This document shows, piece by piece, positions 15,501-60,499 of a DNA stretch of 64,000 nt. How positions within the stretch are numbered: position 1 is the first letter of the stretch; each line of letters begins with the position of its first letter. Where the stretch lies: contig JBAIAA010000237.1 of assembly GCA_037893245.1 (NCBI GenBank), positions 1,116,001 to 1,180,000 on the forward strand. Reading direction: 5' to 3'. A program made the translations under genes and the position numbers. Below the pieces are notes generated by a model, which was given only the letters and a program-made list of their open reading frames with translations, did not search any database and was not told where the DNA came from. The stretch is from Crossaster papposus. Lineage: Eukaryota; Echinodermata; Asteroidea; Velatida; Solasteridae.

Positions 15501-18500
15501 GGGATAAAAAGTAATATCTTTTTCGAAGTGAAAAGTTTCAAAAAATGCATTATACTATCCAAAGCTGCTGTACTTCTTACCAAGTTAGTTTGTATTGCCA
15601 TTAATTTTTGGAGTCATTACCAAACGTATACGATCCCTTTAAAGATTTGTGTTCGTAGATGCTGTGTTCTTTGATTTTTCTCAGACGAAACAGAGTAATT
15701 TATAGACGGGGAATTGTACATGTAAGGTCAGAGATTCAGTTGTTCCCCTTCACAGATGTGTAATCAATTGGAAAGAAAATGTGGAATAACTAAATATGTG
15801 ACCTGTTCATACGAAACCCGGACAAAGTCGCACAATGTGTTTTGTCACAATGTACTCCTGAAGTCATTTCGGGATGGATTTTACCATTTTTAGGTTTTAG
15901 GTTTTCCTGAGTCACTCACTATTAATCTACAATCTCCTCAAATTTGAACAAAATCCGTCTACCAGAAGTGTGTTTTTTTGTCAATTTTGTGAAACATTTG
16001 TGTATAGAAATAATACGCTTTTCTAAACTTCCAAGCTGTTTATCTCATAATTAGGTTGTCAGGGTTTTATCACTAAATCCAGACCCCAGGGAAGATAGGG
16101 TGGGGGTACATATGTAAATGATACATCATTTTAAAGCTGAGAACCTAGAGAATTTGAAAAAAACTAAATCTGAAAAACTAAATTCTGGTCGGCCGATCAT
16201 GCATTCGCAATTGATACAAAAATACCAATTTACTTGAAAACGTCAGCACACCAGGAGCCATTATTTTACAGGAGGCTTCAAACTGCCATTCCCATCTAGT
16301 AAAGTATTTTGCGATAATTTGGTCATTAATTTTTTTAAATGTTTGCAAATGTTGAACATTCCCTTTAAGCGCGCATATATTATTAAAAGTATCCTTATGA
16401 AAGAAAAAACAGTGAATTGGTTATTGTTGTCAAGGCTACGCTCGCACTAATTTGATAATTTGCTGGCAGTCAAGGGTTTTGGTTCAGTAGTTTACAACAT
16501 TTTAATTAACTGGCATAAATAATTGCTCAAACTTCAAGGATGCTATTTTGCTATCATTACTATTTATTACTAAAATCATAAACCTTTCTGGGAAATATAA
16601 TTCAGGTTGTTGTAAAGGTAGAATACACCATTTGCAGATATCGAAAATATTTATTACTGAATTATTAAGAAATATCTTACTCATTTGAAAGTATATAATG
16701 ATTCTAGGCATCCATCAAAATTATTGTAATTATTCCGTAATTTTTTCGACGCCGGTTGAAAAGAAACGCTGTTTTTTTGTGCTTTTCTCGGCATCCATGA
16801 TTGTAAAACTTTGAAAGGTCAGTTAAATGATATTTACTATAAAATACAACCTCCCAAATCCACCTATTTATGATAATTCAAGCAATTACCAATGGTGTAT
16901 CTTACCTTTAAACCCTTCTTGAAAATCTTTTCCAATTCTATTACGTTAATTTAAACTTGTACACTCTTTTCAACATTGACGTAATATTGCATACAGATTT
17001 GACAGAGTGGCTAGGGGCCAAAACTACCCATAACAGTGCACGGATAATCTTTCTAGAAGATAAATAATACCAAGATATCTCAATTTGGGCTAGTGGTTTT
17101 AGCTTCAGACACTATTTTGTGAAGCGAAGTCTGAAGTTATTTTGCACAGAGAAATATATAAATTCGCGGGCGCAGTTTAGTTATTTCTTTATGCGAAAGG
17201 ACCTCTTACTTCGCTTTACAAAATAGGATCTAGAAATAAAACTAATGGCTCAAATTGAGATATCTTCCTACCATTTTTCTTCTAGAAAGATCATTCATCC
17301 ATAGGTACATGTAGTTTTGGCCTCAGTGTAGTGGAAGTGTGCTTGTTCTTTTTTTGTACAGTCTGAAACAATTATTTAAATTAAAAAAAACCATCAATTG
17401 TTATTAGTTTTGAAAGCTTGTGTCCTGTTTATCACTCTGTTGTAGCTGCTGTTCTTTCTAAAATCTTGTTTTCCTTCAATTTTTCAAGCATGATTTACAT
17501 TAACCTTTTCATTAGAAGCCTAACCAATTCGGTTTTTTTTGTAAACCATTTGTAATCTTTCATAATCATACATTAATAAAAGTGTTTAGCTTGCAGCGGA
17601 CTTGCAATTTGGCTTACGGCAGGCTTGCGATTTGGCTTATGGCAGGCTTGTGATTTGGCTTGCGACGGACTTGCGATTTGGCTTACGGCAGGATTGCGAT
17701 TTGGCTTTCGGCAGGCTTGCGATTTGGCTTGCGGCAGGCTTGCGATTTGGCTTGCCGCAGGCTTGTGATTTGGCTTGCCGCAGGCTTGTGATTTGGCTTG
17801 CCGCAGGCTTGTGATTTGGCTTGCGACGGACTTGTGATTTGGCTTGTGGCAAACATGATTTGGCTTGCGGCGAACGTGCGGTTTGGCTTGTGGCAGACTT
17901 CCTATTTGCCTTGCGGCAGACTTGGTATTTGGCTTGTGGCGGACTTGCGATTTGGCTTGCGGCGGCTTGCGATTTGGCTTGCGGCAAACTGGCGATTTGC
18001 CTTGCGGCGAACTTGCGATTTGGCTTGCCACAGACTTGTGATGGACTTGACTACAACTCTGCCTTCATTATTGGTGACAATTTTAAGACAATCACGCCAG
18101 TGACAAGAGCTTACACTATTGATTATTTGTTGGGCAGACTTGGTGAGGTGAGGGATGTATTGATGGATCTCAGAAACCGAGTCACCACAGAGGAGACGGA
18201 GAGAAGGCAACAAGAACAAAATTTCTTCCTCAAGTATGTCAAGATTTGATCATTTTCGTCTGTAATACGACCGGCATGTTATTCTAACTGTTCATTCGTT
18301 GATTTTCTCCTCCTGAGACAATCTCTGTAAATTTGCTGATGCCTGCTATGCTTTTGCACGCACAAGAATCGCGAAAGAGAAATCATCCAACCTTCATATG
18401 CACATGTGCTGTTGGAATATCGAACAGACTTATTACTGATAGTAAACACAAATGAGTTGCCCCCTCCGACAGATTAAACGACCTCCAGTCCCAGCTCCAT

Positions 18501-58559: not shown

Positions 58560-59249
58560 TATGATGACGGTAAACGATACAGGCTACTTCATGACTCGTT
58601 CACGGTCGACCGCGGTCGAGCATATGTCATTCCTCCTTGTTCTGTGTGGTATTATTATACATCAAACTACTACTGCTTGGAGAGCTGTCTTGGGGGTAAT
58701 CCGAGCAAGACTTGATGCGTGACCATTGGCGATATTTCATACTTTAGCCGACGGTGACCTGACACCGGATCGAGAAACAAAAAACCTCACCGTGAATCAG
58801 ATCAAAATTATACTAGTCGCGTCAGATTACTCGATGTGCAAACCGATCTGGAATTTGATTTTTGGTAATCCTTCTTGATTTTTTTTATTTTTAGAATTGG
58901 TGGTATCTGACTGGTTCGTTGATTGCTTTGTGGTTGGAATATTAATGCTCAGATATGAGCCAACATGAAACACTTTGAAGTTATTTACGAGTGCATAAAA
59001 TGTCATTAGCGTGCAGTTACTATGGAGAATACCATGCCAGAGCGTGCAACGCACGGTTAGAGTACCTCATATATTTACATCGTGTTGTGATTTTCTCATA
59101 ATTTTTCTCTCCGTCTTAAAACCTTGCAGATTTAATGCATCCAAATTCTCGTCAATCTCCAGCATCTAAGATACTTTCTGAAAGTCGTCCGGAGTTGTAG
59201 ACTGAGTCGAGATTTATAGTGATTAATCTTGGAACTATTAAACGGCGAC
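58560..59249 (+). promoter_or_regulatory. 5' flank / probable 5'UTR of the PERCC1-like gene
   Basis: This is mostly unique sequence directly before the ATG. There is no clear TATA box at a fitting distance. Two AGs with pyrimidine tracts, at 59128-59129 (CTTAAAACCTTGCAG) and 59161-59162 (GTCAATCTCCAG), could accept an upstream non-coding 5' exon. Reading from either to the ATG meets stops, so any such exon would be untranslated. A single CATTCCT (58627-58633) resembles a TEAD site but may be chance. Confidence 0.35.
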
Positions 59250-60191
59250 ATGATGGCCACTGACATGGCAGTGGGTTTTGGCCACCAGGGCATGACGTCA
59301 GTCAATAATTTCGGCCACAGCTTTCCGCTACACTCACACCATCAGATGGTCGGGTATGACTACTATACCAACCCCGCCAGGGGCTACCAAGATCACGTGA
59401 TGGTGGCACAGCACAATCAGCAACACGAGGAGGTAGATGAGGAAGACATAGAAGATGAAGATGATGATGATGAGGATGAGTTAGAGGAGAGCGATAATGA
59501 GTCCATGTACACCTCGGCCGACATGGACTCTGAGGTCGCCAGCGAGGATCTAGCGGAGCCCGAGCCCAACGTTGCCGAGCAGCTTTTAGAGTTTGCCCAG
59601 GCCGTCAATCGAGACATCCAGAAGTACTTTGGCCGCAATCAAAGTGCGCACGAACCCGAGACCTCTGCACTGGCGACCGTTTACGAGGACCGCTTCGCCT
59701 CGGGCAAATCGGGACGGGAGCTGTACTACGCCGACCTGCTGCGGGTGGCTCAAAATGGCGACGCCGCCGAACCGTCCTGCAGAACGGGGCGTGGGGGAAT
59801 CGGGAGGAGGCATGATGCTTCCCTATCGCCCCGTACGTCAACAACATCGGCAGGGGAAAATGCAGTTGTAATCAACGCGAACTATTCCTGCCAGAAAGGA
59901 CTGGGACCTTTAAAGGAGCTGTTTGATTTTGCCATCGGGGGCTGCGCGGACAGTGTCAGCAGTAATGACCGCCGCGACGGCCGTTGGCAATCCCAGGAGG
60001 ACTCTGCCCAGAAATGCTTCCAGACGTTACCGTGGAGAAAGCGGGCCCTCCCTAGTAGCTTCTTCGTGGAGCCTGGTTCCCGTGGCCAGCCCCGCACTGA
60101 CTCTATTGGCTACGACCCGCATGTGACCATGATAGAGGAACATGAGACACCAGACTTCAGTGATCTTGTCGCTAATTTCACCGCCGATTAA
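59250..60191 (+). CDS. PERCC1-like protein with TEAD-type omega-loop motif (313 aa)
   Basis: Unspliced frame from ATG 59250 to TAA 60189-60191. A TGA at 59220-59222 closes the frame upstream; a second ATG at 59253 has a better context (A at -3, G at +4). In order: a His/Met/Tyr-rich N-terminus (residues 1-55), a Glu/Asp-rich block (~60-85), a predicted helix with LLEF (112-115) and DIQKYFGR (122-129), RELYYADLLRVAQ (156-168), a Ser/Thr/Arg-rich linker, then WRKRALPSSFFVEP (262-275) and an acidic end. The helix and the neighbouring coiled-coil gene suggest PERCC1, which in mammals is needed for enteroendocrine cells. FAM181 proteins have a similar N-terminal LLxF...DI helix and a C-terminal RKRxLPxSF motif, so they are the main alternative. 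The motif matches the YAP omega-loop that contacts TEAD. A nuclear co-factor role is inference. The frame is GC-rich, unlike its surroundings. Confidence 0.75.
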   Translation: MMATDMAVGFGHQGMTSVNNFGHSFPLHSHHQMVGYDYYTNPARGYQDHVMVAQHNQQHEEVDEEDIEDEDDDDEDELEESDNESMYTSADMDSEVASEDLAEPEPNVAEQLLEFAQAVNRDIQKYFGRNQSAHEPETSALATVYEDRFASGKSGRELYYADLLRVAQNGDAAEPSCRTGRGGIGRRHDASLSPRTSTTSAGENAVVINANYSCQKGLGPLKELFDFAIGGCADSVSSNDRRDGRWQSQEDSAQKCFQTLPWRKRALPSSFFVEPGSRGQPRTDSIGYDPHVTMIEEHETPDFSDLVANFTAD

Positions 60192-60259
60192 TTACGACAG
60201 CCAGAAAATGACAGCTACAACCGTTAGCCATTGAACCAGGACATTTGATCGTGCGTCTG

Positions 60260-60499
60260 TAACCAGTTCACACAGGGATTATTTTAACATCACCGAGCCG
60301 AGGGGCGGGATTATTTTTATCGAAACTCGATCTGAAGTGGGTTCAGGCCGATAGTGCCGGGAAGAACACCCACGCATTTTTGGCCTTGATCGCAGCTGAC
60401 AAACATTTCCGGCCTTGCTCGTGGCGTGTTTATGCGCCATCCGTTTTGAATCTGGGGAAAACTTTGCGTTTATATACGTCATCTGGTGCGAACTGTTAA
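60260..60499 (+). mobile_element. MITE family C
   Basis: TAACCAGTTCACACAGGGAT to TCTGGTGCGAACTGTTAA, ends slightly mutated. It starts ~70 bases after the stop of the PERCC1-like gene. Confidence 0.9.

Follow-up and report, generated by a model that had tools for sequence, protein, structure and literature searches.

Does a sea-star gene that resembles PERCC1 encode a protein able to dock on TEAD, the partner of YAP? Loss of PERCC1 results in congenital enteropathy, and TEAD docking, if true, would tie PERCC1 to Hippo signalling. We consider this question for a 64,000-nucleotide stretch of Crossaster papposus DNA (the window), in which an earlier note had read a YAP-type omega-loop within a PERCC1-like protein and had hinted that PERCC1 was new as a TEAD ligand. 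That hint of novelty falls away, as Sanchez-Pulido, Jia, Hansen and Ponting (2022) already predict PERCC1 to be a YAP/TAZ/FAM181 family member that has both interface 2 and interface 3 for TEAD, and do so across vertebrates, echinoderms, molluscs, annelids and chelicerates, with Acanthaster planci, Strongylocentrotus purpuratus and Saccoglossus kowalevskii among the species of their Fig. 1C (PMC9710580). Three lines of evidence underlie the published prediction: comparison of sequences, a homology model whose interface energies were calculated, and co-expression; AlphaFold models of the motifs failed to superimpose on YAP (PMC9710580). The claim was later cited by PMC10182130 and PMC10182134; in the passages covered of PMC13151016, neither YAP, TEAD nor Hippo is mentioned. 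A search for literature on TEAD with an omega loop in echinoderms, or naming TEADIR3, returned no match. What is new here is only one more echinoderm PERCC1 ortholog and a minor lineage-specific substitution within the loop, the rest being already known.

The PERCC1 gene and its surroundings

A protein search with the window protein returned 79 matches at E ≤ 10 (the weakest at E 5.0e-6), which constitute the homolog set used throughout. The best of these is a Patiria miniata protein named 'PERCC1-like', 81% identical along the entire query, and the second-best is from Acanthaster planci (73% identity); the third-ranked homolog and that of Asterias amurensis are each 54% identical. Latimeria PERCC1 is 38% identical across an aligned 66% of the query (E 1.9e-27), and the set further includes sea urchins, a brittle star, the hemichordate Glandiceps, amphioxus, other vertebrate PERCC1s, molluscs, the brachiopod Lingula and two annelids. 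The window protein and 32 of the 79 homologs were combined in a 33-sequence alignment, A1. Full-length similarity to named PERCC1s, together with the SGRELYYADL and PDFSDL blocks, bears out the PERCC1-like assignment made previously, and on this homology the gene is the sea-star ortholog of PERCC1; the ranking of the homologs points to a sea star with kinship to Patiria.

Several blocks are conserved across the protein (Table 1), the N-terminal half of which is acidic. The AEQLLEFAQAVNRDIQKYFGR block probably corresponds to the conserved N-terminal PERCC1 region that PMC9710580 describes as predicted to be helical and common to FAM181. Within SGRELYYADLL, residues S154, G155, R156, E157, Y159, Y160, A161, D162 and L163 are invariant in A1.

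Table 1. Features of the PERCC1-like gene in the window, with positions and supporting evidence.
Feature	Residues	Positions	Strand	Evidence
PERCC1-like coding sequence, single uninterrupted ORF	313 aa	59250..60191	+	ATG-started ORF; homology to PERCC1
Conserved N-terminal block AEQLLEFAQAVNRDIQKYFGR	109-129	59574..59636	+	A1 invariant L112, F115, D122, I123, F127, G128
PERCC1 block SGRELYYADLL	154-164	59709..59741	+	A1
Predicted TEAD interface 2 (LxxLF), LGPLKELF	218-225	59901..59924	+	A1; homolog pattern
Predicted TEAD interface 3, YAP-type omega-loop WRKRALPSSFFVEP	262-275	60033..60074	+	Pfam TEADIR3; A1; PDB profile; conservation
Conserved C-terminal block TPDFSDL	300-306	60147..60167	+	A1 invariant P301, D302, F303, D305, L306

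At the 3' end of the gene, 60190-60234 reads in the +1 frame as NYDSQKMTATTVSH followed by a stop, which corresponds to the tail that closes other sea-star PERCC1s (Patiria ends in SDYDNQLTATTVSH); this reading begins just before the end of the window ORF's stop codon. The gene in the window thus has a small frame change near its 3' end, at a cost of ~12 C-terminal residues, which could be either a real variant or an assembly error.

Elsewhere in the window, at least 29 further frames of ≥110 aa run from stop to stop, counting those closed within its ends; of the 29 listed, 10 were scanned, and none of the 10 matched a Pfam family at E ≤ 0.01. The interval 59200-60300 was also searched for repeats and contained only a short palindrome. 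On the minus strand at 17573-18064, there are frames of similar, KSQACRKPNRKPAASQIASLPQA-like short repeats, whose appearance suggests a tandem array and not a gene; the longer of these frames has no Pfam match at E ≤ 0.01.

The omega-loop and a second predicted TEAD interface

The omega-loop spans 14 codons and lies exactly where the earlier note had placed it. Anchored on LPxSFF and aligned to the YAP1 letters of 3kys_B (PMRLRKLPDSFFKPP), it is identical to YAP1 at R89, L91, F95 and F96 and carries W262 in place of M86, as had been claimed; further identities, beyond those originally listed, are P85 (P261), R87 (R263), P92 (P268), S94 (S270) and P99 (P275). The interface-3 signature PxxxRxLPxSFFxxP is satisfied by residues 261-275. 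Pfam PF15238 (TEADIR3, 'Omega loop, TEAD interacting region 3') matches residues 260-275 at E 3.2e-05, with a score of 24.4 bits that is slightly below the curated cut-off of 26. All 33 members of A1 match TEADIR3 at E ≤ 0.01, and the domain is found among the precomputed domains of 67 of the 79 homologs, being absent from 12, Patiria and Acanthaster among them.

Five loop columns (P261, R265, P268, S270 and F271) are invariant in 33/33 aligned sequences. A stricter search pattern recovered the loop in 66/79 homologs and missed others because Phe was disallowed at the L91 position; a relaxed version, [RKQ].[LMFIV]P.SF[FWY], regained 12 of the 13 missed, bringing the count to 78/79 and leaving P0071 as the sole homolog without a loop. 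This check across vertebrate and invertebrate PERCC1 proteins contradicts an absence of the motif elsewhere. It also widens the scope initially proposed, that of deep deuterostomes, since the motif is present in molluscs, a brachiopod and annelids as well.

Upstream of the loop lies a feature absent from the earlier note, the LxxLF motif (L221-F225), which PMC9710580 designates TEAD interface 2. Residues G219, P220, L221, L224 and F225 are invariant in A1, and the pattern [GS]PL..LF is found upstream of the loop in 75/79 homologs. In three homologs (P0066, P0068 and P0070) the loop occurs but the interface-2 pattern does not, and both are missing from P0071; GPF..LF replaces GPL..LF in P0068, P0070 and P0071.

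When the A1 profile was compared with PDB sequences, 18 matches were returned at E ≤ 10, and the leading 12, each with E < 0.01, were without exception TEAD-binding peptides: nine from YAP1 and one each from FAM181A, Yorkie and Vestigial. Among these, YAP1 3kys_B was matched at E 1.1e-05, the FAM181A peptide 6l9f was the third-best match and Vestigial was reached at E 0.0094; TAZ appeared at E 0.8 only, among chance-level matches. The window sequence by itself gave five chance-level PDB matches, with no YAP or other TEAD ligand among them. The occurrence of TEADIR3 in every A1 member and the TEAD-binding peptides that head the PDB matches together support the reading of a YAP-type omega-loop, and the proposal that PERCC1 is a TEAD ligand is supported as a prediction.

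Chance, convergence and lineage variation in the loop

The LPxSFF loop might instead be a chance or convergent match, kept for another partner and with no TEAD role. The five-contact pattern [MWLIF]..R.L...FF is weak evidence alone, because it is expected 0.71 times per window (six shuffled frames, 300 shuffles); it was observed twice, with one occurrence crossing a stop codon. The more specific R.LP.SFF is expected 0.013 times per window on shuffling, and when the 313-aa protein was shuffled 200,000 times it turned up once. The literature surveyed on PERCC1, consisting mostly of titles and with most subscription journals outside its coverage, yielded no PERCC1-TEAD binding experiment, which also leaves room for coincidence. 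It is conservation across homologs, however, and not chance statistics, that is the decisive argument for the predicted loop. A fortuitous match is difficult to reconcile with near-universal presence among the homologs, with the invariant A1 columns or with 78 loops in which the L91 position is limited to L/M/F and the F96 position to F/W. Nor would it explain why interface 2 is also there and why the A1 profile picks out TEAD ligands specifically. We regard chance or convergence as highly improbable.

Variation within the loop raises a different possibility. Residue counts cover the 78 homolog loops, exclusive of the window protein itself, and do not represent independent events because the homologs are related by descent. 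The M86 position is occupied by Met in 66 loops, Trp in 11 and Leu in 1. The Trp86 rows (P0001-P0004, P0006, P0008-P0011, P0013 and P0016) take in each of the 8 homologs that bear an echinoderm name (Patiria, Acanthaster, Asterias, Diadema, Lytechinus, Strongylocentrotus and Amphiura) or a hemichordate one (Glandiceps), plus P0003, P0006 and P0016, and no further named ambulacrarian was noticed among the 79 homologs. In the window, this position is a Trp codon at 60033-60035; outside the 11 Trp rows, 66/67 loops have Met. The F96 position is Phe in 20 loops and Trp in 58. Among named homologs, ambulacrarians, amphioxus, lampreys and the annelid Paralvinella have Phe at this position (60063-60065 in the window), as opposed to Trp in jawed vertebrates and the remaining spiralians. 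Arg87 occurs in 10/78 loops, nine with Phe96 and one with Trp96; the nine combining Arg87 and Phe96 all fall within the Trp86 rows, where position 87 is Ser in P0010 and Gln in P0013.

It is conceivable, then, that PERCC1 binds TEAD but that the ambulacrarian change from Met86 to Trp, mostly accompanied by the Arg87 and Phe96 of YAP, alters affinity or partner choice relative to the Met86/Trp96 loop of jawed vertebrates. The concentration of Trp86 in named echinoderms and hemichordates, and of the Arg87-Phe96 combination within the same rows, speaks for such a shift. However, the Trp86 rows share ancestry and may therefore reflect one or a few substitutions without effect, and FAM181A combines Met86, Arg87 and Trp96, so these positions are not tightly coupled. 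We consider altered affinity or partner choice unlikely, and a shift in TEAD affinity relative to YAP and vertebrate PERCC1 that would make the sea-star protein a tuned YAP competitor is a shade more doubtful still.

Predicted TEAD docking and comparison with known systems

Our preferred reading, to which we assign a probability of roughly 0.9, is that window PERCC1 is a predicted transcriptional co-regulator that docks on the YAP-binding surface of TEAD via two consecutive motifs: interface 2, LGPLKELF, followed by the interface-3 omega-loop PWRKRALPSSFFVEP. The YAP contact residues are all kept in the sea-star loop except M86, which is replaced by W, making TEAD docking the likely mechanism. 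PERCC1 would occupy this surface in the manner of YAP, TAZ and FAM181. Weighing against this reading are the window protein's Pfam score slightly under the cut-off, the PDB comparison with the lone sequence that did not reach YAP, the loopless homolog P0071 and the published AlphaFold models. By analogy with YAP and Vestigial (Vg) structures, R265 (YAP R89) would form a salt bridge with a TEAD aspartic acid, W262, L267 and F271 would build a hydrophobic core, and S270 (YAP S94) would contribute a hydrogen bond. F272 may cap the core, possibly with a pi-cation contact to R263 (YAP R87). The corresponding contact roles in YAP:TEAD4 are described for M86, L91, F95, F96-R87, R89-Asp272 and S94 in PMC7566471. 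Once docked, PERCC1 would modulate the target genes of TEAD, either alongside YAP/TAZ or in opposition to them. As for enteroendocrine cells, a role there is extrapolated from mammalian genetics only and may or may not extend to the sea star.

Both the window protein and YAP/TAZ/Yorkie present LxxLF followed by PxxxRxLPxSFFxxP, and R87, R89, L91, S94, F95 and F96 of YAP1 are identical in the sea-star loop. In contrast, the Fig. 1 legend of PMC9710580 lists interface 1 under YAP but not under PERCC1. As no WW domain is listed by Pfam at E ≤ 1, the window protein is not classed as a YAP/TAZ ortholog. The Vg omega-loop occupies the same site on Sd/TEAD but, unlike the sea-star loop, substitutes Phe for L91, Trp for F96 and Ser for R87 of YAP (PMC7566471). 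FAM181A/B resemble PERCC1 in architecture and have interfaces 2 and 3 in common with it (PMC9710580), although FAM181A has Met and Trp at positions 86 and 96 where the sea-star protein has Trp and Phe. The jawed-vertebrate PERCC1s of the homolog set likewise differ from the sea star in having Met86 and Trp96. With PERCC1 as described in PMC9710580, the window protein shares full-length similarity, interfaces 2 and 3 and the conserved blocks.
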